Source: a virus
Strand: one strand, 5' to 3'
Length of the DNA stretch: 60,124 nt
IMG/VR virus record: IMGVR_UViG_3300038552_000146
Coordinates: 1-60,124 of that record
Shown: piece by piece, positions 3,371 to 59,115 of the stretch
Layout of the letters: every line of letters begins with the position of its first letter
Position numbering within the stretch: position 1 is the stretch's first letter
Program-made: the position numbers and the translations under genes
The notes under the pieces: generated by a model
The model's database searches: none
What the model saw: only the letters and a program-made list of their open reading frames with translations
What the model was told of the DNA's origin: nothing

Positions 3371-4573
3371 TCAGGCCGTGAACAACTCCCCACACTCATC
3401 ACACCGGACCACACCCAGATCCAGCACCTTCCGGCTCAGCCGGATGATCAGCGGCTCCGAGCACGAACACGTGGCCTTGAGGTTGCCACTCTGAATCGTG
3501 GTTCCCTCAGCTTGACGCTTGCGGCCCCCGCCGATGAACTCGCCGCCCTCGGTATCCTCGCCCTCAGGCGTGGCCGTCCCCTTCAGAAACCAGGGGAGGT
3601 CAACCACCAGCCGGATCTCACGATCCAGTTCGTTCAGGAGATCTGCGTACTCGGCCTCGGTCCCGGCGGTCAAGGTCACGAACGAGAACCCGTGCTGGGT
3701 GTCCGCACTGGCTCCCTTGTGCTCCAGGCCCATCTCCTCAGCCAGCGAGCGGAACACCTTGTTGTGCCATCGACCCTGGCGGCTGGTGTCCTTCAAGTCC
3801 CGAACCCGGGCCAGAACGTGGGCAGCCTCATGAAGCATGGTTTGGAGCACCTGGCGAGCGCCCTTAGCCATCGTCTCCCCTGCCATGAACATCTCGCCCA
3901 GGGCCAAGTTCGTGGCGGCTGCTTCGCCCTCGGCCCGAGCCATCCAGCCATTCGCCCGGAAGTGGCCCCAGCGCGCCGGGCCGATCATTCCGGTACCGGT
4001 CACGATCACCACGTCCGGGAGTTCCGGGTGGTTCCCGCGAATGCGGTTCCAGACCTCTTCCATCAGCCTGACAACGGCAGAGCCGGTCATGTCACCAGTC
4101 TGAGTCGATGCGGTGGTCTCATCCTCCTCAGGCTGCCCGTCCTTGGCGGCTTCGTGCTCCTCCTCAGCCTGGATTTCCTCGTCTGAGGGGTACTCCTCCT
4201 CATCCATATCTTCAGCAGACTGCCCTACCAGCGGAGCCGGAATCTTGATCCGGGAAACAAGGACCGCCGTGTCAAAAACCCGGACGCCAGCTCCCCCCGG
4301 GTTACGCAGCGCCCAGTCAACTTCCCTGTCCGTCGTGTAGACCACCGACACCTTGACCCGGCCCACTTTGGCTACTACGCCGCGCCGGAGCCGACTCCAC
4401 CCGTTCAATGTCCAGACGTGGACGATCTGACCAACGGTCAGCTCGTCCACTGAACGCGGCGAAACCCATCCGTTCGGCATGCGCTCCAGAGCTTCAATCA
4501 GGCTGATCAGATCGAAGTTCTTGCCACCTATCTCGAACTCGCGAGCCTGGCTGATAGTCAGATACTGGGCCAT
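3371..4573 (-). CDS. SprT-like zinc metalloprotease
   Basis: 400 aa. HEAAH at 248-252 with a third ligand near H270 fits the SprT/Spartan zincin fold. A C-terminal zinc ribbon uses C369, C371, C391 and C394, as in SprT-family proteins. The N-terminal 110 residues form an SH3-like segment (VGQIVHVWTLNGWSRLRRG), then an acidic linker (120-155). Family members digest DNA-bound or other proteins; the phage substrate is unknown. ATG 4573 follows GGGGAGG. It is a monocistronic unit between its own promoter and terminator. Confidence 0.8.
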   Translation of the reverse strand: MAQYLTISQAREFEIGGKNFDLISLIEALERMPNGWVSPRSVDELTVGQIVHVWTLNGWSRLRRGVVAKVGRVKVSVVYTTDREVDWALRNPGGAGVRVFDTAVLVSRIKIPAPLVGQSAEDMDEEEYPSDEEIQAEEEHEAAKDGQPEEDETTASTQTGDMTGSAVVRLMEEVWNRIRGNHPELPDVVIVTGTGMIGPARWGHFRANGWMARAEGEAAATNLALGEMFMAGETMAKGARQVLQTMLHEAAHVLARVRDLKDTSRQGRWHNKVFRSLAEEMGLEHKGASADTQHGFSFVTLTAGTEAEYADLLNELDREIRLVVDLPWFLKGTATPEGEDTEGGEFIGGGRKRQAEGTTIQSGNLKATCSCSEPLIIRLSRKVLDLGVVRCDECGELFTA

Positions 4574-4613
4574 CGGTCTGTCCTCCCCGGTCGTTGTCTC
4601 GTTGGAGAGCACA

Positions 4614-4642
4614 ACTTTACAGCCGTGACGTTAAGGTGTCAA
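4614..4642 (-). promoter_or_regulatory. Phage consensus promoter
   Basis: TTGACA, 17-bp spacer, TAAAGT, upstream of the SprT-like gene. Confidence 0.85.
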
Positions 4643-4653
4643 CCTGGGGACGA

Positions 4654-4687
4654 CAAGAGGCCCCGGTGCGGGAACCGGGGCCTCTTG
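4654..4687 (-). terminator. Hairpin terminator
   Basis: Perfect 14-bp stem (caagaggccccggt / accggggcctcttg) with a 6-nt loop, just after the HTH gene. Confidence 0.85.
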
Positions 4688-4701
4688 ACCAGGGGGAACT
4701 G

Positions 4702-4941
4702 TTAGGCGACGGACGGAACAAGATCCGTCCGTGCGCCCTGGCCGGGTCTATCCGCCTTCCAGCGGTCCAGCTCCTCCCGAGTAAAGACCGGAAGGTTGTA
4801 CTGTCCATCCACTTCTCGCCGGTCGATAGCCGGACCGATGCCGCGCGCCACATAGCTAGAGAGCGTGTTTCGCCTCAGACCCAGGTACTCGGCGGCCGGA
4901 CCGTAGCCCATGAACTCAGTCGCGTTGTCCAGGATCGTCAT
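4702..4941 (-). CDS. MerR/excisionase-type helix-turn-helix protein
   Basis: 79 aa. MGYGPAAEYLGLRRNTLSSYVARG is the helix-turn-helix of the HTH_17/excisionase family, followed by LPVFTREELDRWKADRPG, the typical wing and helix. ATG 4941 follows AGAAGGTG. It is transcribed away from the NlpC/P60 gene from a divergent promoter pair. It could regulate the nearby promoters or be a recombination directionality factor, but no integrase is present, so a regulator is more likely. Confidence 0.75.
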   Translation of the reverse strand: MTILDNATEFMGYGPAAEYLGLRRNTLSSYVARGIGPAIDRREVDGQYNLPVFTREELDRWKADRPGQGARTDLVPSVA

Positions 4942-4985
4942 AGTTTCACCTTCTCTCATCGCTCACATGGGCGGTCTTCCGTCCC

Positions 4986-5015
4986 ACTATACAGGCACGC
5001 CTTCTGAACTGACAA
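4986..5015 (-). promoter_or_regulatory. Divergent promoter for the HTH gene
   Basis: TTGTCA, 18-bp spacer, TATAGT; a divergent member of the phage promoter set. Confidence 0.65.
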
Positions 5016-5043
5016 GCCGAGAGATCGCTATCCGACCCCACCC

Positions 5044-5071
5044 TTGACAAAGGTAGTCATGACTGTAAAGT
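5044..5071 (+). promoter_or_regulatory. Phage consensus promoter
   Basis: TTGACA, 16-bp spacer with GTCATGACTG, TAAAGT. Drives the secreted NlpC/P60 gene through a leader with GGGGAGG. Confidence 0.85.
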
Positions 5072-5102
5072 TAAAGGCGGTTGATGAGAGGGGAGGACGG
5101 AA

Positions 5103-5552
5103 ATGATCCGTTCAGTGGCAAGGGCCGTCATCGCGGCCACCCTGCTTACCGGGGTAGTGGTGATCCCCGCTGACCAGGCTGACGCGGCTACCACGGCGCA
5201 GAGGTCCGCGATCGTGCGGGAGGCCAAGAAGCACGTGGGCAAGCCGTACCGGTACGGTGCGGCCGGGCCCGACCGGTTCGACTGCTCGGGCTTCACGCTC
5301 TACGTCACGCGCAAGGCCACCGGCAGGAAGTTGCCTCACAACGCCGATCGGCAGATGAGAAGTTCCTTGCTGAAGTCGATCACCAAGGGGCGGGCCCGGC
5401 CGGGAGACCTCTTGTTTTTCACCTCGGGGGGTCGCGCGTACCACGCCGCTATCTACGCCGGTGGCGGCAAGATGTGGGACGCCGGTACGTCTAGGGTCAG
5501 GTACCGATCCATCTGGACGTACTCCGGTGTGAGATGGAGAACACTACGCTAG
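5103..5552 (+). CDS. Secreted NlpC/P60 peptidoglycan hydrolase
   Basis: 149 aa. Residues 1-29 form a Sec signal peptide (two Arg, hydrophobic core, cleavage likely after QADA). The NlpC/P60 domain shows DCSGF with C61 and YHAAIY with H114, the catalytic pair; such enzymes cut gamma-D-Glu/meso-DAP stem-peptide bonds. It has its own promoter, Shine-Dalgarno and bidirectional terminator and lies opposite to its neighbours, away from the holin/endolysin genes. That suggests a moron acting on the host wall, or an accessory lysin. Confidence 0.85.
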   Translation: MIRSVARAVIAATLLTGVVVIPADQADAATTAQRSAIVREAKKHVGKPYRYGAAGPDRFDCSGFTLYVTRKATGRKLPHNADRQMRSSLLKSITKGRARPGDLLFFTSGGRAYHAAIYAGGGKMWDAGTSRVRYRSIWTYSGVRWRTLR

Positions 5553-8275: not shown

Positions 8276-8942
8276 AGGGGCTCCAAGAGAAGTACGGGCT
8301 GGTGACGGCGGGCCGCTCGCCCTGAGCGACGATCCGGCTCGGTAGCTCCCAACGCGAGCCCAGGCCGACATCACGGCTGGTGGAGTACAGGTAGTGGTAC
8401 AGGATCCGAGGGACCACGGCCTGCTTGCGCAGCACGCGCATACGGCGCAGTTGGTCCGCCCAAACCCGGTCCTCCGCACGACCAGTGCGCGCTGCAGCAA
8501 AGCTGGCCTTCAGTGCTAGCTCGCGCCTGATCGGGTTCAGGTGGGAGATGTCGCGCTCGAACCGGCCAGAGAAGTTGCGCCATCGGCGGAACTCCAGCGA
8601 GTGGTACGCCACGCCGATCGGGGCCCCGTCTGAGTAGCACTGGACCTGAAAGCCCACGTAGTCCGGCCGCTGGTCCAACGCGGCCATGATCTCGGCTACG
8701 TAGTCCGGGGTCACCAGATCGTCATCGTCCACGAACGAGATGTACTCGCTTCCGGCGGTCTCCACCATGCGTTGGCGGATCTTGGGTAGCGGCGGGCTTC
8801 CGTTGTTGAACCAGCCGATCACCCGGACCTGCCCAGCGTACGGATCAAGCTGGGGGAGAAGCCCTGTCATCAGCCGCTCGAACAGCACGCGTCGCTCCCC
8901 CAGGGTCGGGACGAGGATCGACCACAACGGCACGGCTGTCAT
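8268..8942 (-). CDS. Family 2 glycosyltransferase
   Basis: 224 aa. ILVPTLGERR starts the GT-A fold and YISFVDDDDLVTPDYV carries the DxD nucleotide-sugar motif; AARTGRAEDRVWADQL fits the catalytic-base region (ED). First gene of the cassette. ATG 8942 lies 7 nt after TAAGGT, so the message may be leaderless, though the -35 is poor. Cassette genes overlap tightly, so one modification pathway is likely. Confidence 0.8.
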   Translation of the reverse strand: MTAVPLWSILVPTLGERRVLFERLMTGLLPQLDPYAGQVRVIGWFNNGSPPLPKIRQRMVETAGSEYISFVDDDDLVTPDYVAEIMAALDQRPDYVGFQVQCYSDGAPIGVAYHSLEFRRWRNFSGRFERDISHLNPIRRELALKASFAAARTGRAEDRVWADQLRRMRVLRKQAVVPRILYHYLYSTSRDVGLGSRWELPSRIVAQGERPAVTSPYFSWSPYA

Positions 8943-20707: not shown

Positions 20708-21124
20708 TCAGCCGATAGTGACCGTGAATCCTTCCTGGGGGGCTACCTCGCGGAGGGCCTGGGCAAGGTACGGCCTCCCCTTGCGCGCCTTCTGGTGGAC
20801 CTGACGCGCGTAGACCACACGGCCATCCACCACGAACCGGAGCCGACCGCCAGGCCGTTTCGCACGGATGGTCAACGCGCGTCGCCCCTCATGGACAGCC
20901 GCCGCGTACTCGGCCGTATAGGCCACACCCCCGATGACCAGCGCGCCGTTGACCCGCGCGAGATCAGGGCGCCCAGACGCACGTAGAGGCCCGTCGTCCA
21001 CCGGGACGAGGATCTGACTCCGGGTGAACGTTCTCCTGACCGCGCGGTTCACGCGTTTACGAGCCTCTTCGATGCCTATGCCTTGGAGCTTAGCCCGATC
21101 AAGCTGGAGCCGGTACGCCACCAT
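20708..21124 (-). CDS. HK97 gp10-like neck/tail completion protein
   Basis: 138 aa. N-terminal helix with basic residues (IEEARKRVNRAVRRTFTRS), then VPVDDGPLRASGR, VIGGVAYTAEYAAAVHEG and GRPYLAQALREVA at the end; this order is typical of the HK97 gp10-like family at the head-tail joint. ATG 21124 has no Shine-Dalgarno. The 370-bp upstream interval holds two promoters pointing the other way. Confidence 0.75.
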   Translation of the reverse strand: MVAYRLQLDRAKLQGIGIEEARKRVNRAVRRTFTRSQILVPVDDGPLRASGRPDLARVNGALVIGGVAYTAEYAAAVHEGRRALTIRAKRPGGRLRFVVDGRVVYARQVHQKARKGRPYLAQALREVAPQEGFTVTIG

Positions 21125-21141
21125 GCCGCGAGCATATCGCT

Positions 21142-21170
21142 TGACACGTCCCCGTGATGCCTGTAAAGTC
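21142..21170 (+). promoter_or_regulatory. Phage consensus promoter without an ORF
   Basis: TTGACA, 17-bp spacer ending TGATGCCTG, TAAAGT. No start codon lies 7 nt downstream and no ORF follows; it points against the structural operon. Confidence 0.8.
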
Positions 21171-21172
21171 AT

Positions 21173-21355
21173 CCCTGTCGGCGAGGCCCCCGGTGGAGAC
21201 GGTGGCTACACACCCCGGGTAAGTCCCCGCTGACAGCACCACGGCTGACAGGCCATCAGCCGTACCGGGGGGCCCGCGCGATGTCGTGGTGCCGACTGGG
21301 GGATGCAGGAACCGCATCGAAGCGGATCCTTAGCGGAAACCCCCGGGCCTCCCAC
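21173..21355 (+). ncRNA. Candidate structured noncoding RNA 1
   Basis: Predicted transcript from the promoter at 21142. Helices by eye: gcccccggt (from 21187) with accggggggc (near 21263); gcaccacg with cgtggtgc (near 21291); acggctga with tcagccgt; and a later ggggg/ccccc pair enclosing hairpins gatgc/gcatc and ccgc/gcgg, where loop agga could pair with tcct. The helices nest. No ORF or known RNA family recognised. Antisense to the 5' region of the gp10-like transcript. Confidence 0.5.
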
Positions 21356-37337: not shown

Positions 37338-37500
37338 GGTTCAAGACCTAACCCCCTAACAGTTGTTGAGCGGTGAAGGTGGGGGCTTCGCCGAAGAATC
37401 GAAGGTGAAGGTGGGGGCTTCGCCGAAGAATCGAAGGTGAAGGTGGGGGCTTCGCCGAAGAATCGAAGGTTCAAGACCTAACCCTCTAGTAGAGGTTGAG
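37338..37500. repeat. 33-bp direct repeats flanking the iterons
   Basis: ggttcaagacctaaccc begins both copies (37338-37370, 37468-37500) and gttgag ends them. The three 32-bp repeats lie exactly between. Confidence 0.85.
37372..37467. repeat. Three tandem 32-bp repeats (iteron-like)
   Basis: Starts at 37372, 37404, 37436; each copy is ggtgaaggtgggggcttcgc followed by cgaagaatcgaa, and includes the small palindrome cttcgccgaag. Spacing is exact. Confidence 0.95.
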
Positions 37501-47051: not shown

Positions 47052-47081
47052 ACCTTACAGCATCGCCGGGAAAGTAGTCAA
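47052..47081 (-). promoter_or_regulatory. Phage-type promoter for the LPXTG gene
   Basis: TTGACT or TGACTA, 17/18-bp spacer, TAAGGT. Confidence 0.7.
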
Positions 47082-47356
47082 CCGGGTAGCGACATGAACG
47101 CGGCCAGGCTGATCACGATCAGCGCGATGCCCACGGCCACGGTAACCACGGTCCACGTCGGCAGGCCGTGCCGTCCGGTCCATCCGTGCTGAACCGCCAG
47201 GTCTTGTTCTACCCGACTGGCCAACGGCGGCGACCCGGGACTGTCCCAGGGCCGCTCGTACGCGCCGGGGAGAGCTGGCGGCTCCCCCCATTCTGCCAAC
47301 GTCCGCACCCAATCTTGCCGGGGCGACCGCTCAACGGGGCCCATCTCTTCCTTCAT
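47078..47356 (-). CDS. Small membrane protein, 92 aa
   Basis: Cytoplasmic N-terminal region (RQDWVRTLAEWGEPPALPG) and C-terminal membrane helix (WTVVTVAVGIALIVISLAAF). ATG 47356 has no strong ribosome site; an ATG five codons later is possible. Next to repeat array 1. Unknown function. Confidence 0.6.
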   Translation of the reverse strand: MKEEMGPVERSPRQDWVRTLAEWGEPPALPGAYERPWDSPGSPPLASRVEQDLAVQHGWTGRHGLPTWTVVTVAVGIALIVISLAAFMSLPG

Positions 47357-47390: not shown

Positions 47391-47640
47391 GAGCGTGGGT
47401 GCCAGGGGCTTGAACCCCAGTGCCTGCCGGCCACCCGCCTTGTACCCCATGCCTTGCCGTGCCACACCTAGCTCGACCGCGCCTCACCCGGCCACGCCAA
47501 GCCACGCCGTGCCTAGCCAGGCCGCGAACGTAGGTGCCGAGGGCTCGAACCCCGGTGCCTGCCAGCCACCCACCTAGTACTCCATGCCCTGCCGTGTCTT
47601 GCCCTGCCATGCCGAGCCGTGCCATGCCGCGCCCTTCCCG
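47391..47640 (-). repeat. T-arm-like hairpin / pentamer array 1
   Basis: Noncoding. Contains units 1 and 2 of seven (47391-47439, 47525-47574). On the minus strand each unit reads GGGTG, spacer, CACCGGGGTTCAAGCCCCTGG-like hairpin, CACCC, so the outer pair GGGTG/CACCC closes on the inner T-arm-like hairpin. Between units lie degenerate GGCNN pentamers. See findings. Confidence 0.8.
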
Positions 47641-47671
47641 GCCCCACTGTGACAGGCCAAGCAATGGACGC

Positions 47672-48181
47672 TCATACAGCCTTTTCGGACCGCGATTCAA
47701 TCATTCTCTTCAGGTCGGAGATATTGGAACTCCGGCGCCCAGAGACCTCTGCAGCCATCTGGGCGGAGAACACCACGCGGTCCAGCCGCTCCCGTTCGAA
47801 CTGGCTCAGCTCCTCCCGGCGGCTGTTCAGCGCGGATGCTCCCCGGATCACTCGGCCTGCCGCGCGTCGGGTCTTGGCCAGGCGGCGGTTCACTTGTTGC
47901 AACTCCTTGGACGCATCCAGGACGATCCAGCCGAACCGCGCCACGGTACCCACCGTGCGCTCTCCCCGGGCTTCCAGGTTCTTCTGCGTGTCGCGCATAG
48001 CGGCTTGCACGATACGCAGCGTCCGGTCCGTTAGCTGCATGAACCCGAGGGCTTCACCGGCCTCCCGGTAGGTCACCTCATCCCCAACATTCTTGGCGCT
48101 CACCAGATCGGCGAGCTTGCGCCAGCGGGGGGAGACCCCATCTACTGGCTCGAATAGCTTTCGCTCCACTTGATCTCCCAT
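47672..48181 (-). CDS. Conserved phage protein of unknown function, 169 aa
   Basis: Helix-rich: EVTYREAGEALGFMQLTDR, DASKELQQVNRRLAKTRRA, RRSSNISDLKRMIESRSE. The N-terminal part has a helix-turn-helix-like look. ATG 48181 is preceded by GGAG, and by repeat array 2 in its leader. Sits downstream of the polymerase gene, so a role in replication or its control is possible. Confidence 0.6.
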   Translation of the reverse strand: MGDQVERKLFEPVDGVSPRWRKLADLVSAKNVGDEVTYREAGEALGFMQLTDRTLRIVQAAMRDTQKNLEARGERTVGTVARFGWIVLDASKELQQVNRRLAKTRRAAGRVIRGASALNSRREELSQFERERLDRVVFSAQMAAEVSGRRSSNISDLKRMIESRSEKAV

Positions 48182-48184
48182 CTC

Positions 48185-48855
48185 CGTTGTACTCCGTGCC
48201 CTGCCGCGCCATGCCTAGCCACGCTTCACCTAGCCGCGCCTGGCCGCGAGCGTGGGTGCCAGGGGCTTGAACCCCGGTGCCTGCCAGCCACCCTCCTTGT
48301 TGTCCCATGCCCTGCCGCACCTCGCCTAGCCGAGCCATGCCCTGCCACGCCATTCCGAGCCGCGAGCGTGGGTGCCAGGGGCTTGAACCCCGGTGCCTGC
48401 CGGTCACCCGCCTGTTGTCCCATGCCTTGCCCAGCTTTGCTGAGCCGCGCCCAGCCCTACCTAGCCGTGAGCGTGGATGCCGGGGGCTCGAACCCCGGTG
48501 CCTGCCGGTCACCCTCCTTGTTGTCCCATGCCTTGCCGTGCTGTGCCCGGCTCTGCCAAGCCCTGCCTAGCCCTGCCTCGCCTTGCCATGCCTGACCGTG
48601 CCAAGAGCGTGGGTGCCAGGGGCTCGAACCCCGGTGCCTGCCAGCCACCCGCCTTGTGCCCCATGCCTTGCTCAGCCCAGCCCCACCTCACCTCGCCTTG
48701 CTACGCCAAGCCGTACCGAGCCGCGAACGTAGATGCCGGGGGCTCGAACCCCGGTGCCTGCCGGTCACCCACCTGGTACTCCATGCCTTGCCATGACCCG
48801 CCATGCCAGGCCGTGCCTTGCCCAGCCTTGCCATGCCGAGCCCTGCTAGGCCGTG
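48185..48855 (-). repeat. T-arm-like hairpin / pentamer array 2
   Basis: Noncoding 0.67 kb between the 48.9-kb and 48.2-kb genes. Holds units 3-7 (48247-48296, 48363-48412, 48469-48518, 48604-48653, 48724-48773), each with a ggttcRag T-loop hairpin, set in GGCNN pentamers such as GGCATGGCAAGGC. Units vary in the closing stem, but G-C and G-U pairs are kept (CACCC, CATCC, CATCT opposite GGGTG), supporting an RNA structure. Confidence 0.8.
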
Positions 48856-48860
48856 AACGC

Positions 48861-49433
48861 CTACTTCACCTCGGCCGAGAAACGACCGTAGAACCTGCGG
48901 TAGTCACCGACACCGACCGCCCGGCCCGCTTTCTGCGCCAGCATCGCGAAGTGCTCGGGGTTCAGCACCTCATCATCTACCAGCACGTCGAACGCACACG
49001 ACCACTCGGGAAAGATCGGCCGAGTGACCGGGATACGGACCCGGTTGACAGCAGCCAACCGGCGATCCACGAACCGACCGGTTCCGTCTCCCCAGAGCGT
49101 GCCCAGATCCCGGGGGCCGGGGTACTCTAACCGCGCCCGATCGGCCTGGAAGATCACGCCGCGCTCGACCTTCTTACCGTCACGGGTCATCGATCCGGCC
49201 TCGATCAGGCACCGGAAGATGTTGGCGGCCGGCAGGTACGGGCCGTACGCGTCGTCCCAGTACAGACCGGCGATGAACTTCAGCCGGGAGATCTCCATCT
49301 CATCCGCGTCGGTCTTGTTGGTGCGCTTCGCCGTGATCTCCTTGATCGCCCTCGCATACGGGTTGAGCGGATCCGCCGTCTGCGCGTTGTGCATGATCAA
49401 CGGGGTGGTCCCCGTCATGGTCAGAGTCATCAT
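48861..49433 (-). CDS. Conserved phage protein of unknown function (RAMP-like look), 190 aa
   Basis: MTLTMTGTTPLIMHNAQTAD start, ALYWDD-type core (AGLYWDDAYGPYLPAANIF), LEYPGPRDLGTLW and VGVGDYRRFYGRF at the end. This pattern recurs in unrelated actinophages. A Gly-rich end resembles RAMP/Cas7-like folds, but that similarity is only an impression. ATG 49433 follows GGAGA. Lies between the polymerase gene and repeat array 2. Confidence 0.65.
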   Translation of the reverse strand: MMTLTMTGTTPLIMHNAQTADPLNPYARAIKEITAKRTNKTDADEMEISRLKFIAGLYWDDAYGPYLPAANIFRCLIEAGSMTRDGKKVERGVIFQADRARLEYPGPRDLGTLWGDGTGRFVDRRLAAVNRVRIPVTRPIFPEWSCAFDVLVDDEVLNPEHFAMLAQKAGRAVGVGDYRRFYGRFSAEVK

Positions 49434-49444
49434 CGTCTGGTCTC

Positions 49445-49515
49445 CTGTCTCCGTGGTGCTCCGTGCCTTGCCGAGCCATGCCAAGACCTGCCTCGCCCTG
49501 CTAAGCCCTGCCGTG
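49445..49515 (-). repeat. Short pentamer repeat without T-arm unit
   Basis: GGCNN-type repeats (tgccttgccgagccatgcca, + strand) in the leader of the 190-aa gene, between its promoter and start. Similar cggagtacaacggag-like ends occur before the 169-aa gene. Confidence 0.7.
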
Positions 49516-49523
49516 CGGTTCAA

Positions 49524-49553
49524 ACCTTACCGTCATGCCGGCGAGGTTGTCAA
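49524..49553 (-). promoter_or_regulatory. Phage-type promoter
   Basis: TTGACA with an 18-bp (or TGACAA with 17-bp) spacer, TAAGGT; upstream of the 190-aa gene. Overlaps the polymerase gene stop. Confidence 0.75.
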
Positions 49554-52500
49554 CCCTTGACGTAGCACTGCCCCCATGAGGTCCCCGGACGGCTGACATC
49601 CGCCAGGATCGGTACGCCGTCCAGATCAAAGGACAACGCGTCCACCACGGCCTGACCCACCTCTCTCACCTCACGCTCCGGGACAGACAGGACTATTTCA
49701 TCGTGGATCTGCGCCCGAAGCATCGGCAGAATTCGCGCGTCCAGCCGAAGAAGACCGTGCATCATAATGTCCCTGGCCGCACCTTGACCCATCAACGCCG
49801 GAGCCTGAGTATGGGCACGCTGGGGATCAGCACGCATCAGTCTTCCAAACCCATTGTCCAAGAGGTGGCCATTCTCAGCCAGCGTACGAACCTCACCCTG
49901 CCACTCCACCAGCCTGGGGAAACGCTCGCGCATAGACGAATCAAACTGACGAACCAACGATGGCTCGATATCGTGGCTTTCACTAATAGCCTTAATACCC
50001 CGGCCATAATTCCAGCCGTGACCAATTGCTTTCGCAATTTCACGCTTACCCGCGTCCCCGAATAGCTGAATGGCGATTTGCGTATGCGGATCCTCGTGAC
50101 CAAGCATGTCAATGTACGCGGCATCCTGACTTAGCCAAGCTACCGCGCGCATGTCCACCTGAGACAGGTCTGCTGAAATCAGTACCTCACCGGGATCGGG
50201 GAGGAGGACGTCTCGCTCTACGTGCCGTCCGCCCCGCTTGCCCAGCACGGTCAGGCCCGGCGAGGTGACCGACCATCGCCCGGTAGCCTGGGCGAAACTG
50301 ATCCGAGGGTGGACCCGGCCGTCCGGACCGGTGTGATCCGAAATGGTCTGGTAGACCGAGCGTGCGCCAACGATCCGGTACACGTTCTTAGCTATCTCCC
50401 GCACCCGGGGAAGATGGGCATACTCGCTGGCCAGATGCTTCATGTGCTCGCCCGAGGTATCCAGATCCTGGCTCTTCCCGGTACGCCAGAGCGAGGTAGC
50501 CCCGGCCGCCCGGAGGGCGGTTTCCAGGGCTGCCTTGCCATTCTTGGTGGCCAGGGGGCTCTTGTACGGCTTTCCCTTAGCGTCGGACAGCGGGACCCCA
50601 GCATTCTTGGCCAGCCACGCGAGGCTCTGAGCCTTCCGTTCGTCCACCTCGGTCACGCGCTTGGCCAACAGTTCTGGATCTACCCGGAACCCGTTGTAGC
50701 TGATCTGCGTGGCCAGAGCCGCTACGCGGTGTTCTCGCGCCAGGTACTCGGGCACCGTGCCACCCAGCCACGCCAGGAGCGTGCGGTACAGCCTGCGGCT
50801 CAGCTCCACATCCTGAACCATGTATCGAACGAACTCAGTCGCGTCCGCCGCGCGCTCGGGGTCCGGGTCAGCCGTGTCGATCGGGATCAGACCCCATCCC
50901 CCGTACTTCTTGGCCAGGGCCTTAGACACGTCGGTCAGCTTCTCGCCCAGGCCGTACTGCTGTCCGAGCGCACCAAGATCATACTTTCTGGTGGCGTCTA
51001 CGCCCTTGTCTCTCGCCATGGGCGGATCCAGGTACCGCGCGGCAAGGATCGCATCGAACAGCCGCCCGTCAGCCGCGAGCTGGTGGACCTCGGTCATGGT
51101 CAGCGCGCCCTCGCGGACCAGCGCGGGCAGGTCGAACGCCATGATGTTGTGCCCGGTGACCACCGCGCCGGTCCGGACCGCGTGAGCGGCCAACGCCGGG
51201 GCGCCGTCCCCGGCCGCCACGGTGACCGGCCGGTCCTCCCGGGCGGCCCCCGCCAGGCGGATGTAACCCGGACCGTTCCGGTACAGCTCATCCGCGTGAC
51301 CGGTCTCCAGGTCGAACGCGGCCACGCCGCCAACCCCGCCACGGGCTATTCCGGGGACCTCTACCGCGTCAATCAGGTCGGACATGTCCACCTCTATCGA
51401 TCCGGGTGAACCGTCCACAGGTTTGTCCACAGGCTGGGGATTCTCCTCCCCGGTTGACGTGTCAGTGTCAACCGGTGGCCGGACTTCATCGTGGCCCCGC
51501 CCGTCCGTGTCCTCGGGAGCCGGACCGCGTGCCTCGGCATGCTCGTTCTCCGGCGGCGGCTCAGGCTCCGGGTTGCCCTCGGTCGGCCCGTCCTCGTCAT
51601 CCTCGAACACGGCCCAGACACTCACGTGGCCGTGGGCCGATCCATTGCGCTCGATCCACAGTCCGTCATACCGGCGCCCCCGCAGGCGCGAGTACGCCTC
51701 CCCGAGCGCCTTGCCATACCCCTTCTCACTCGGGTCATCCAGCTTGGGGGGAGCGAGATACCCAGGTGGGTCCGTCATCGCCTTCTCGCGGACCTGAGCG
51801 GTCCGGAACGGCTGGTCCCCGAACACGTCTCTGAGCCAACGGAGATGGCCGGCCCAGTACTGGGTATCGAAGTCCGATTCGGAGCGCCAGACCTTCAGGT
51901 TGCCCAGGAACCCGGCCAGTCCAGCGGTTTCCACGATGCCGCCCGCGATCTTCTCCCAGATCTCAAACGATCCAAACGACACGCCGCGCACCGGCCGTGG
52001 TGAACCGGCCGCGAACCATGCCCTGATCAGGGTCAGGATCGACGCCATCAGCTCGCGCCGGTTGTCCCGGGTCCAGCTCCCTAGATCGAGGCCTGATTGG
52101 CCCGGGTGCCGGAACGAACTGGCCGGACGATCCTGAGGGTTGGCATAAGTCGGCCGCAGCGCGATCCGGTAGACCCGACGCGTGAGGTCTCCCCGGACCT
52201 GCACCTGGTTCCCGAGGCTGATCCAGGTGATCACGTTCGGGAAGTTGGCCATCGTGCTGACCCCGAGAATCCGATCTTGCCAAGTGGCGGCCGTCAACGC
52301 CTGGGCCAGCGGGGCACCCTCGATCGTGTGGGCTTCATCGAACACGAAGAACTCCGCGCCGGTACGGAACGCGGCCGTGATCTGCTTTCTGAGTTCCTCC
52401 GCCTCGGGAACCCAGTTCATCGGTTCGGCCGCGCCGCCGGTGTAGACCATCAAGAGGCTGTCCGCCAGAAGGTTCTTGCCCACACCCATCTGAAGACCAT

Positions 52501-53848
52501 CGATAACCGCCAGCGGCACCTTAGGAACCATGCCTCGAATAGCTGGGGTGACGATCAGCGCCAACACGTTGGCCCGATCAATGTCCGATTCAAACGGGAA
52601 GTCACCCAACCACTCCTCCAGCAACAGCCCACGTGCCGCCATGATCTCGGCCGGACTCGGATCCTCCGGCACCTTCAGGCCCTCAAACACCGGGTCCGGG
52701 AGAAGCATGGTCCGGGTCTGTTCGTCGTATCCTGGCTCAGTGACCACGGTCCCGTCGCTACGTACAAATGGCGCGTGAGCGATCCGGTCTAACGCGGCGA
52801 ACCGGTCAGCTCGACTCAAGACGGCCGCCATAGAATTGGGGTCCGGCCAAGAATAGGAGTATGTGGTCCCGTTCGCACCCTCGTTCTCGTTGACTGTTAT
52901 TGCTGTCTCTTGAACCACGTCGTTGAATGAGCCCTTATCTACCGGGTGCATCCCATCACGCTTACGTCGGGAGATCACCCCGCCGTGATTGAACAGTTCC
53001 ACGGCGTTCCACCGGCTCAGCAGCGCATCAGTAAGATCGTTGATCACGGTAAAACGATCTCGGTTGACCACGATCGTGGTGCGCCCATCATCCGATTTGG
53101 GAGCCTCGCGAGTTTTCTTCCTGCCGGTCGGCTTCTGGTCAGATGGCTTGGGTCGGGCCTTGTCGATGACCCTGGCCAGGTAGTCCGCGCGCCGATCGGT
53201 CGGGCGTGCCCCCAATACATCGTCCAGCCCTGACTTACCTCCCCCGGGGAGGCGGCCGAACACAACCTTGTTCGCGCCCTCCATCGCCAGGGCCTCGGCC
53301 AGACCCGTCCCAGCCTCATACACCTGGGGGTTCTCGGCCGCGTCCGCGTCCAAGATCACTACCACATCGCGGCCGTCCGCCACCACGAGATCCGAGATCG
53401 GCCGTCCCTCGACCTGCCACATGCGACACCCGGCGATGCCGTACACGCCTACACCCGGCGGTGCGTAGCTCGCAGCGGACAGGCACTGCTTGGTACCCTC
53501 CACAATCAAGATCCGCTCAGCCGTGGCGACCGGACGCACGGCCCAGAGGACCGGGGTCATCTCCTTGCGAAACACGTACTTGCGCTCCCGGCCGCGCCCG
53601 TCCTTGGTTGGGTTGTCCGGCCGGACCTGAAACTCCACGTCCCCGGCCTCGTTGGTCCAAGGGAACAACAGCGCCGGATGGTTCGCCCAGTTGCCCCATA
53701 CGCCCTCCTGAGGGTTGTCCTCGCGGCTCATCAGCGAACGCACGCCGAGTGATACGGCCAGCTCCACGTCTACGGCCTGAGCGGTCAGAAATTCCGCGTG
53801 GTCCTGGCTGAGCTGTCCTATCGGCCGCCCCGTGTTATCGTTTGCCAC
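49550..53848 (-). CDS. Primase (TOPRIM) + ATPase + family A DNA polymerase fusion, 1432 aa
   Basis: GTG 53848 follows GGAGGG (11 nt). Residues 1-235: TOPRIM/DUF3854-like domain with E117 in ILIVEGTKQCLSA and D167/D169 in VVVILDADAAENP. 255-750: ATPase with Walker A LQMGVGKN (near 452-459) and Walker B FFVFDEAHT (500-508). 755-820: acidic, disordered linker. 840-1025: DEDDy 3'-5' exonuclease (AAFDLET with D846, GHNIMAFDLPAL with D906, YMVQDVELSRRLY with D1013). 1030-1432: Pol A palm with D1227 in motif A, KREIAKAIGHGWNYG motif B (His at the Taq F667 position) and IHDEIVL (D1383, E1384). It could prime, unwind and copy DNA as one polypeptide. Confidence 0.9.
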   Translation of the reverse strand: MANDNTGRPIGQLSQDHAEFLTAQAVDVELAVSLGVRSLMSREDNPQEGVWGNWANHPALLFPWTNEAGDVEFQVRPDNPTKDGRGRERKYVFRKEMTPVLWAVRPVATAERILIVEGTKQCLSAASYAPPGVGVYGIAGCRMWQVEGRPISDLVVADGRDVVVILDADAAENPQVYEAGTGLAEALAMEGANKVVFGRLPGGGKSGLDDVLGARPTDRRADYLARVIDKARPKPSDQKPTGRKKTREAPKSDDGRTTIVVNRDRFTVINDLTDALLSRWNAVELFNHGGVISRRKRDGMHPVDKGSFNDVVQETAITVNENEGANGTTYSYSWPDPNSMAAVLSRADRFAALDRIAHAPFVRSDGTVVTEPGYDEQTRTMLLPDPVFEGLKVPEDPSPAEIMAARGLLLEEWLGDFPFESDIDRANVLALIVTPAIRGMVPKVPLAVIDGLQMGVGKNLLADSLLMVYTGGAAEPMNWVPEAEELRKQITAAFRTGAEFFVFDEAHTIEGAPLAQALTAATWQDRILGVSTMANFPNVITWISLGNQVQVRGDLTRRVYRIALRPTYANPQDRPASSFRHPGQSGLDLGSWTRDNRRELMASILTLIRAWFAAGSPRPVRGVSFGSFEIWEKIAGGIVETAGLAGFLGNLKVWRSESDFDTQYWAGHLRWLRDVFGDQPFRTAQVREKAMTDPPGYLAPPKLDDPSEKGYGKALGEAYSRLRGRRYDGLWIERNGSAHGHVSVWAVFEDDEDGPTEGNPEPEPPPENEHAEARGPAPEDTDGRGHDEVRPPVDTDTSTGEENPQPVDKPVDGSPGSIEVDMSDLIDAVEVPGIARGGVGGVAAFDLETGHADELYRNGPGYIRLAGAAREDRPVTVAAGDGAPALAAHAVRTGAVVTGHNIMAFDLPALVREGALTMTEVHQLAADGRLFDAILAARYLDPPMARDKGVDATRKYDLGALGQQYGLGEKLTDVSKALAKKYGGWGLIPIDTADPDPERAADATEFVRYMVQDVELSRRLYRTLLAWLGGTVPEYLAREHRVAALATQISYNGFRVDPELLAKRVTEVDERKAQSLAWLAKNAGVPLSDAKGKPYKSPLATKNGKAALETALRAAGATSLWRTGKSQDLDTSGEHMKHLASEYAHLPRVREIAKNVYRIVGARSVYQTISDHTGPDGRVHPRISFAQATGRWSVTSPGLTVLGKRGGRHVERDVLLPDPGEVLISADLSQVDMRAVAWLSQDAAYIDMLGHEDPHTQIAIQLFGDAGKREIAKAIGHGWNYGRGIKAISESHDIEPSLVRQFDSSMRERFPRLVEWQGEVRTLAENGHLLDNGFGRLMRADPQRAHTQAPALMGQGAARDIMMHGLLRLDARILPMLRAQIHDEIVLSVPEREVREVGQAVVDALSFDLDGVPILADVSRPGTSWGQCYVKG

Positions 53849-53878
53849 AGTTTGGTCTTCCCTCCAAGGTTGATCTCT

Positions 53879-53914
53879 CCGGGCCAAGACCCCCTCACGG
53901 AGGTCTTGGCCCGG
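53879..53914 (-). terminator. Hairpin terminator
   Basis: 13-bp stem ccgggccaagacc / ggtcttggcccgg at the end of the coiled-coil gene; a TTG start for the polymerase at 53887 would lie inside it, so GTG 53848 is preferred. Confidence 0.85.
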
Positions 53915-58811: not shown

Positions 58812-58885
58812 GGTCGCGCCCTGCCACGGAATCGAACCGTGGCCCTCTCACCCGGGGGTAAGAGTCTGCGTGCCAGCTCAGGGCT
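58812..58885 (-). tRNA. tRNA-like element, probably degenerate
   Basis: T arm CACGG-TTCGATT-CCGTG and a 6-bp acceptor fit a tRNA, but the D arm is too short and the anticodon loop is 6 nt, so decoding function is doubtful. No anticodon is assigned. Confidence 0.35.
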
Positions 58886-59115
58886 ACCGCCCGTCTCTCC
58901 GGGCTGTCACGGCACTACCTTCCGTCCTCGGGGACCTAGTTTCCCGGTCGGCGCATCGTCGGCCCGGTCCTTACTTCCGGGCTCGCCCTCATGGCCGAAC
59001 CTTGTTGCCGGTCGTACCCCGTGGGAGGGTCGAACTCCCTCCTGGTCCTCCGGTCCCGACACATTCCAGCTCGTATTGGCCTGGCGACGGGTCTTGCTCC
59101 AGCGGGGCTAGCGCC

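Follow-up and report, generated by a model that had tools for sequence, protein, structure and literature searches.

A viral VIPR guide array whose guides alternate with tRNA-like mini-hairpins, putative cleavage sites for host tRNA enzymes

Gene content and guide tracts of the locus

The window, i.e. the whole 60,124-nt stretch of the IMG/VR virus record IMGVR_UViG_3300038552_000146 that we analysed, carries on its minus strand a primase-polymerase fusion gene followed, in this order, by a first tract of pentamer repeats, the vipr gene, tracts 2-7 with mini-tRNAs 1-5, gene B, tracts 8 and 9 with mini-tRNAs 6 and 7, and a gene for a 92-aa protein (Table 1). There are nine pentamer tracts, each with 9-15 GGY-NN units, eight of them delimited by script and one by eye. 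Of the 99 units in total, 91 have G at position 1, 96 have G at position 2 and 97 have C or T at position 3, the last two positions being variable. By script, the window strictly alternates between a tract, 10-13 nt, a mini-tRNA, 6-8 nt and the next tract. The tracts are followed by a short conserved tail, GGCAY-GGRRYACNA, and vrRNAs 1 and 7, from which the mini-tRNA is absent, keep its GGRRYAC part. A sequence-only reading of this DNA had described hairpins spread through degenerate pentamer repeats between 47391 and 48855; the two are in fact separate, regularly alternating modules and, although eight of the tracts do lie in that interval, the ninth (vrRNA 1) lies outside it, upstream of vipr. 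Elsewhere in the window, at 37372-37470, there is a perfect 32-bp tandem repeat of 3.1 copies (GGTGAAGGTGGGGGCTTCGCCGAAGAATCGAA) with the flanks GGTTCAAGACCTAAC.

Table 1. Features of the VIPR region, in minus-strand order (window coordinates; scores in bits are those of the R1 model)
Feature	Position	Strand	Remarks
Primase-polymerase fusion gene	49550-53887	-	Nearest relative Actinoplanes phage phiAsp2, 72% identical
vrRNA 1 guide tract	49463-49512	-	10 GGY-NN units; flanked by the primase-polymerase gene and vipr; without mini-tRNA
vipr gene	48861-49433	-	Vipr RAMP protein, 190 aa, phrog_4652; profile, fold and PHROG matches
vrRNA 2 guide tract	48783-48852	-	14 units, by script
Mini-tRNA 1	48729-48772	-	GTGGGTG / accGGcaggca / CCGGGG ttcgagc CCCCGG / CATCTAC; 58.1 bits
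vrRNA 3 guide tract	48663-48722	-	12 units, by script
Mini-tRNA 2	48611-48650	-	60.8 bits
vrRNA 4 guide tract	48528-48602	-	15 units, by script
Mini-tRNA 3	48475-48514	-	63.8 bits
vrRNA 5 guide tract	48422-48466	-	9 units, two degenerate (AGCAA AGCTG); under script threshold, by eye
Mini-tRNA 4	48370-48409	-	62.5 bits
vrRNA 6 guide tract	48307-48361	-	11 units, by script
Mini-tRNA 5	48254-48293	-	60.7 bits
vrRNA 7 guide tract	48196-48245	-	10 units; next gene directly after, without mini-tRNA
Gene B	47672-48181	-	169 aa; candidate VIPR accessory (vap) gene, from linkage to arrays
vrRNA 8 guide tract	47584-47643	-	12 units, by script
Mini-tRNA 6	47530-47573	-	54.9 bits
vrRNA 9 guide tract	47449-47523	-	15 units, by script
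Mini-tRNA 7	47397-47436	-	About 40 nt upstream of the start of the 92-aa gene; 56.0 bits
92-aa gene	47078-47356	-	Downstream of mini-tRNA 7

The product of vipr matched the PDB entry 36pp_D, 'SUSP1 Vipr', with E=5.2e-44 as a profile and E=1.3e-22 as a single sequence, and phrog_4652 with E=9.9e-48. Its AlphaFold2 model had a pLDDT of 96.7, and the top PDB matches of this model in Foldseek were RAMPs of the Csm3/Cas7 type (E about 1e-5). These data clearly show that the gene encodes a Vipr RAMP protein. Array loci were collected by scanning IMG/VR for seven consecutive GGCNN units, which gave at least 120 loci, AT-rich phages among them, and a Vipr profile grown from the window protein was run on these and on 176 loci not chosen by pentamers. 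Homologues of Vipr were found in 85 of the 120 pentamer-array loci listed and in 0 of the 176 others.

As described in the main text of the VIPR preprint, a RAMP protein is accompanied by vrRNAs of about 100 nt with 9-16 YNNGG repeats, the NN dinucleotides of which read double-stranded DNA with a one-base skip, and the repeat tract is followed by an invariable structured 3' tail that is pseudoknotted in the SUSP1 clade; the array types named there are staggered, hammerhead-interspersed and single-vrRNA (PMC13142463; bioRxiv 2026.04.26.720920). VIPR is a possible ancestor of CRISPR, being a guide system proposed to predate it. Since the 99 window units match the VIPR code, with GGY conserved and NN variable, the pentamers are most probably VIPR guide RNAs (vrRNAs) and would serve as guides in this phage too; the predicted mature guides, of 64-95 nt, are in line with the length given in that text. 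Compared with the VIPR systems presented there, the locus shares the Vipr RAMP gene, several flanking GGY/NN vrRNAs, carriage by a phage and an adjoining candidate accessory gene, but differs in that its guides are separated by tRNA-like mini-hairpins. Homologues of gene B occur in 17 of the array-bearing loci tested, including L028, L082, L205, L222 and L317, which are of the tRNA type, and its motif GDxVTYxxxGxALG resembles, by eye, a winged-helix segment; no significant Pfam or PHROG match to the protein was found. In the search for guide targets, the exact 10-dinucleotide patterns of vrRNAs 2 and 9 had no match in IMG/VR, vrRNA 9 had none with up to three mismatches in 301 genomes, and nothing convincing emerged from 3.1 Mb of DNA, in which the skip-3 'hits' were arrays matching themselves.

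The regular direct repeats adjoin the primase-polymerase gene, which would suit an iteron-type replication origin with pentamers bound by an initiator protein, as the sequence-only reading had also considered. However, GGY/NN units with a hypervariable NN are not a conserved iteron, the arrays track Vipr across unrelated viruses and the hairpins between them covary as RNA (see below); we therefore give this origin hardly any credence and take the pentamers as probable guide sequence. Binding of the pentamers by a TRAP-like protein, two-tier G-quadruplexes and pausing motifs were dropped as readings once Vipr had been identified.

Structure and covariation of the mini-tRNAs

The seven near-identical hairpin units recognized in the earlier reading share the minus strand, and their T-loops lie at 48750, 48630, 48494, 48389, 48273, 47551 and 47416. 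In each, an acceptor stem of 5-7 bp is joined, across an 11-nt bulge, to a T-stem of 6 bp, which is capped by the 7-nt loop TTCRAGC. A descriptor composed of a TTCRA loop, T-stem, 5'-strand bulge and acceptor recovered all seven window units. At the cut-off used for dinucleotide shuffles it found six copies in the window compared with a mean of 0.05 in the shuffles, and it found 5-14 copies in parts of Oaker, Papyrus, phiHau3, Cafasso and Lika compared with 0-0.1 in their shuffles, which rules out chance and the low-complexity artefact that the earlier reading had named as a ground for refutation.

That reading had also taken the G-C/G-U pairing kept in the closing stem as a sign of selection on RNA. 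The exchanges are real (GGGTG pairs with CACCC, CATCC or CACCT within the window) and become full compensatory changes in relatives. The nine pairs to be tested were kept out of the anchor by which 228 distinct elements were selected; in these elements the nine were 98.5% paired compared with 66% for shuffled partners, with 28 different acceptor and 40 different outer T-stem sequences represented. For 40 diverse elements, 97.5% of cells were paired and both sides had changed in 130 cells compared with 40 in shuffles, and pairing fell to 35-55% when the registers were slid. This covariation across copies, for which the earlier reading had suggested looking in relatives, is decisive for an RNA structure.

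Several positions recall tRNA. The bulge contains GG in 42 of 43 mRNA-type and 33 of 33 array-type elements, and 3' of the stem A73 is present in 93% and C74 in 99.5%, C75 being rare. The 7-nt TTCRANN T-loop with G53-C61 is present as well, the T-loop being part of the selection. Judged by these features, the T-arm hairpins are best described as anticodon-less mini-tRNAs, made up of acceptor, 11-nt bulge with a near-invariant GG, T-arm and A73-C74. In the elbow of tRNA, G18-G19 dock onto psi55 and C56 (PMC4810234); by analogy, the GG can be seen as a D-loop mimic that would dock into the T-loop. The tRNA mimicry proposed from the sequence thus gained, beyond its T-arm and acceptor stack, a D-loop-like GG that had been missed.

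They are not tRNAs proper: a cloverleaf with D and anticodon arms is absent, both arms being replaced by the bulge, and the reading of these hits as real tRNAs was rejected because ARAGORN predictions overlap 0 of the 7 window units. Likewise, Rfam returned no family for the elements at its gathering and E-value level, the best weak match of a copy being RF01684 with 20.5 bits (gathering threshold 42.5). The sequence-only reading had known of no described phage element of this form; for the pentamers this no longer stands, as VIPR is the subject of a 2026 preprint, whereas for the mini-tRNAs it does, in that no description of such tRNA-like phage elements was found in Rfam, with ARAGORN, in the main text of that preprint or in the literature searched.

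Two further hairpins were recorded in this context. The copy at 8840 in Oaker (L076) has no bulge and forms a continuous 12-bp acceptor/T-arm hairpin, the classic shape of a minimal RNase P substrate. In the window, ARAGORN called a tRNA with an odd two-base anticodon at 58816-58904 on the minus strand; its T-arm is strong (GCCACGG ttcgatt CCGTGGC), and we may be dealing with either a degenerate tRNA or a further tRNA-like element.

Distribution and genomic placement

By BLAST, the element is present in 139 phage records, mostly from Streptomyces and Mycobacterium phages, many of them without a Vipr homologue in the DNA examined, which was not the whole genome in every case. All 43 copies mapped in five annotated phages are intercistronic and on the sense strand, and they sit in early operons, a median of 9 nt past a stop codon and 45 nt ahead of a start codon. 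A promoter-linked leader RNA, considered on account of -10-like sites in phage BroPlease, was dropped because most copies lie 5-15 nt past a stop codon. Tight clusters, e.g. 12 copies in 3.2 kb and 6 in 1.6 kb, were found when 41 bacterial genomes of the Actinocatenispora family were searched, as expected of prophage operons, and copies also occur in Bacteroidetes and Gemmatimonadota MAGs. Three of the Bacteroidetes MAG contigs (L197, L198 and L200) share the bulge ACYGGCAGRCA with differing stems (e.g. TTCCG...CGGAA), so that the element extends beyond Actinomycetota. Papyrus (L077), a Mycobacterium phage with 14 mini-tRNAs, also encodes a GOLLD RNA (RF02032, 190 bits) at 20838-21297.

Such intercistronic, sense-strand placement in early operons would also suit an element that works uncleaved, as a 5'-UTR device for mRNA-end protection, recruitment of tRNA-binding proteins or antitermination, and a second hairpin often follows it. 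In 312 mRNA-type copies this hairpin mostly starts 2-6 nt past the element, with a mean z of -1.42 compared with -0.32 for an ORF control and -0.06 for VIPR arrays, where a guide starts instead; a hairpin at this point is expected if a new mRNA 5' end lies there. Against an uncleaved device, the element also stands between non-coding guides, where there is no translation to regulate, and its tRNA-specific GG, A73 and C74 point to tRNA enzymes; a terminator fits poorly with many copies punctuating one operon. We consider this explanation unlikely, and the related proposal of the earlier reading, that the hairpins are leaders regulating translation of the next gene, gives way to their position as separators of VIPR guide RNAs.

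The form of array with mini-tRNA separators was found in the window and in about ten others among the VIPR-like viruses examined; over 11 loci the median gap is 12 nt from tract to mini-tRNA and 8 nt from mini-tRNA to tract. A mini-tRNA lies on the same strand in only 6 of the 120 pentamer loci listed, and the idea that the pentamers belong to the mini-tRNA family was rejected on this ground. On the Vipr tree the tRNA-type label changes at least three times, indicating that this form of array was gained or lost several times; L082/L196 and L317/L323 are duplicate loci, the latter pair being the Gordonia phage Trine. At the locus 4558-5361 of Trine (L323), the annotated gene 40 overlaps the guide array, begins within a mini-tRNA and may be a mis-annotation. 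No element of the mini-tRNA type was found in phiAsp2, the nearest relative.

As most tracts of the window have a mini-tRNA after them and the preprint's main text gives the vrRNA an invariable structured 3' tail (PMC13142463), the element might instead be such a tail, or handle, which would remain part of the guide with Vipr bound to it, as happens with the pseudoknotted tail in the SUSP1 clade. However, the arrays of Trine and L222 open with a mini-tRNA ahead of any tract, 8 nt past the vipr stop and directly past a stop codon respectively, and a plain 3' guide tail therefore does not describe the element. In addition, vrRNAs 1 and 7 have their conserved tail without it, phages with no detected Vipr homologue carry the same element, and within a single array its stems differ freely from unit to unit (L028 and L082). 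A retained tail is thus, in our judgement, improbable.

Proposed processing by host tRNA enzymes

Because the element marks the boundaries of both genes and non-coding guides and presents an acceptor/T-arm stack, we propose that it is a processing site for the tRNA machinery. RNase P measures this stack and will also cleave RNAs other than tRNA in which the stack is displayed (PMC4919913; PMC11143913), and it would be, as the sequence-only reading had suggested, a good candidate partner; RNase Z uses the elbow in dealing with 3' ends that lack CCA (PMC4810234). According to this proposal, the host machinery would take the mini-tRNAs for pre-tRNA. Cleavage by RNase P where the acceptor stem begins on its 5' side would free the 3' end of the preceding vrRNA, and a cut past the discriminator A, made by RNase Z or a different nuclease acting on tRNA 3' ends, would free the 5' end of the next one. 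The products would be single guides of about 64-95 nt, and the Vipr RAMP would use the nine vrRNAs so encoded. Where it occurs apart from VIPR, as in many phages, this element would serve as punctuation within polycistronic mRNA.

Some VIPR arrays are interspersed with hammerhead ribozymes according to the main text of the preprint, which refers to its fig. S19 (PMC13142463), and this argues independently that the separator position serves processing. What these arrays share with the window is a processing RNA between guides; theirs is a ribozyme that cleaves itself, whereas the mimic in the window would depend on tRNA nucleases of the host. Rfam gave no hammerhead match in the window, and hammerheads were not found in most of the array loci searched. 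Among the VIPR-like loci, there is a permuted tmRNA at 3511-3693 of L261 and a Hammerhead_II match at 7940-8010 of L314. A VIPR-like array on the minus strand of L203 alternates its guide tracts with another conserved separator or tail (GGGCCTTATTGC...GGGCGGC-TAAAAA-CCGCC...ACGTGCAATC), which differs from the mini-tRNA, and several separator types thus exist.

Engineered polycistronic tRNA-gRNA arrays carry tRNA units between guides, which are released by RNase P and RNase Z; those arrays are synthetic, whereas in the window such an arrangement would occur naturally, with a minimal mimic in place of the tRNA. The tRNA-like domain of tmRNA, which is processed by RNase P, consists of acceptor and T-arm with a D-loop that has no stem. 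The mini-tRNA shares this architecture but lacks the tag ORF and the remainder of tmRNA, measuring about 40 nt in total. The mascRNA/menRNA of MALAT1/NEAT1 (RF01684, the best weak Rfam match) share a tRNA-like fold that directs an RNase P cut, whereas the mini-tRNA copy with this match falls below the gathering threshold, and the element has no D or anticodon stem and belongs to a multi-copy punctuation of bacterial phages. More generally, a tRNA-like fold in lncRNAs leads RNase P to cut a non-tRNA transcript (PMC4810234), and tmRNA is an RNase P substrate (PMC11143913).

Several observations weigh against this explanation of the region. Of 286 elements, 232 have a stack of 11 bp, one pair under the canonical 12, and 40 have the full 12; C75-A76 are missing from the encoded sequence, and the base at position -1 is in most cases A, not U. 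The 3' ends of vrRNAs 1 and 7, which have no mini-tRNA, need another route. The searches for two window guides gave no natural target, and the restriction of this array form to about ten VIPR-like viruses examined, with phiAsp2 free of the element, also counts against it. Taking all this together, we assign a probability of roughly two-thirds (0.68) to the reading of the window as a VIPR array of nine vrRNAs with mini-tRNA separators that would be cut by the host tRNA machinery, the same element punctuating polycistronic mRNA elsewhere. Somewhat better than even, in our estimate, are the chances of the wider proposal that anticodon-less tRNAs of about 40 nt form an undescribed general family of phage RNA punctuation, which would split early operons into single-gene mRNAs and would have been recruited several times to cut VIPR arrays via host RNase P and RNase Z.

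VIPR itself is known; what appear to be new are the arrays interspersed with tRNA-like elements and the mini-tRNA punctuation family, both absent from Rfam and from the main text of the VIPR preprint, where tRNA is nowhere mentioned, although its supplement may already note a tRNA-like array type. The analysis ties an unexplained repeat to VIPR and suggests how multi-guide transcripts mature where a ribozyme is absent, and it brings out a widespread unannotated RNA element in the much-studied phages of Streptomyces, Mycobacterium and Gordonia. If the proposal is true, these would be among the smallest natural tRNA mimics, would offer a handle on the requirements of actinobacterial RNase P and could be used as they stand as compact separators in guide arrays, and these viruses would be operating tRNA-gRNA arrays of natural origin, with RNase P and RNase Z supplied by the host.
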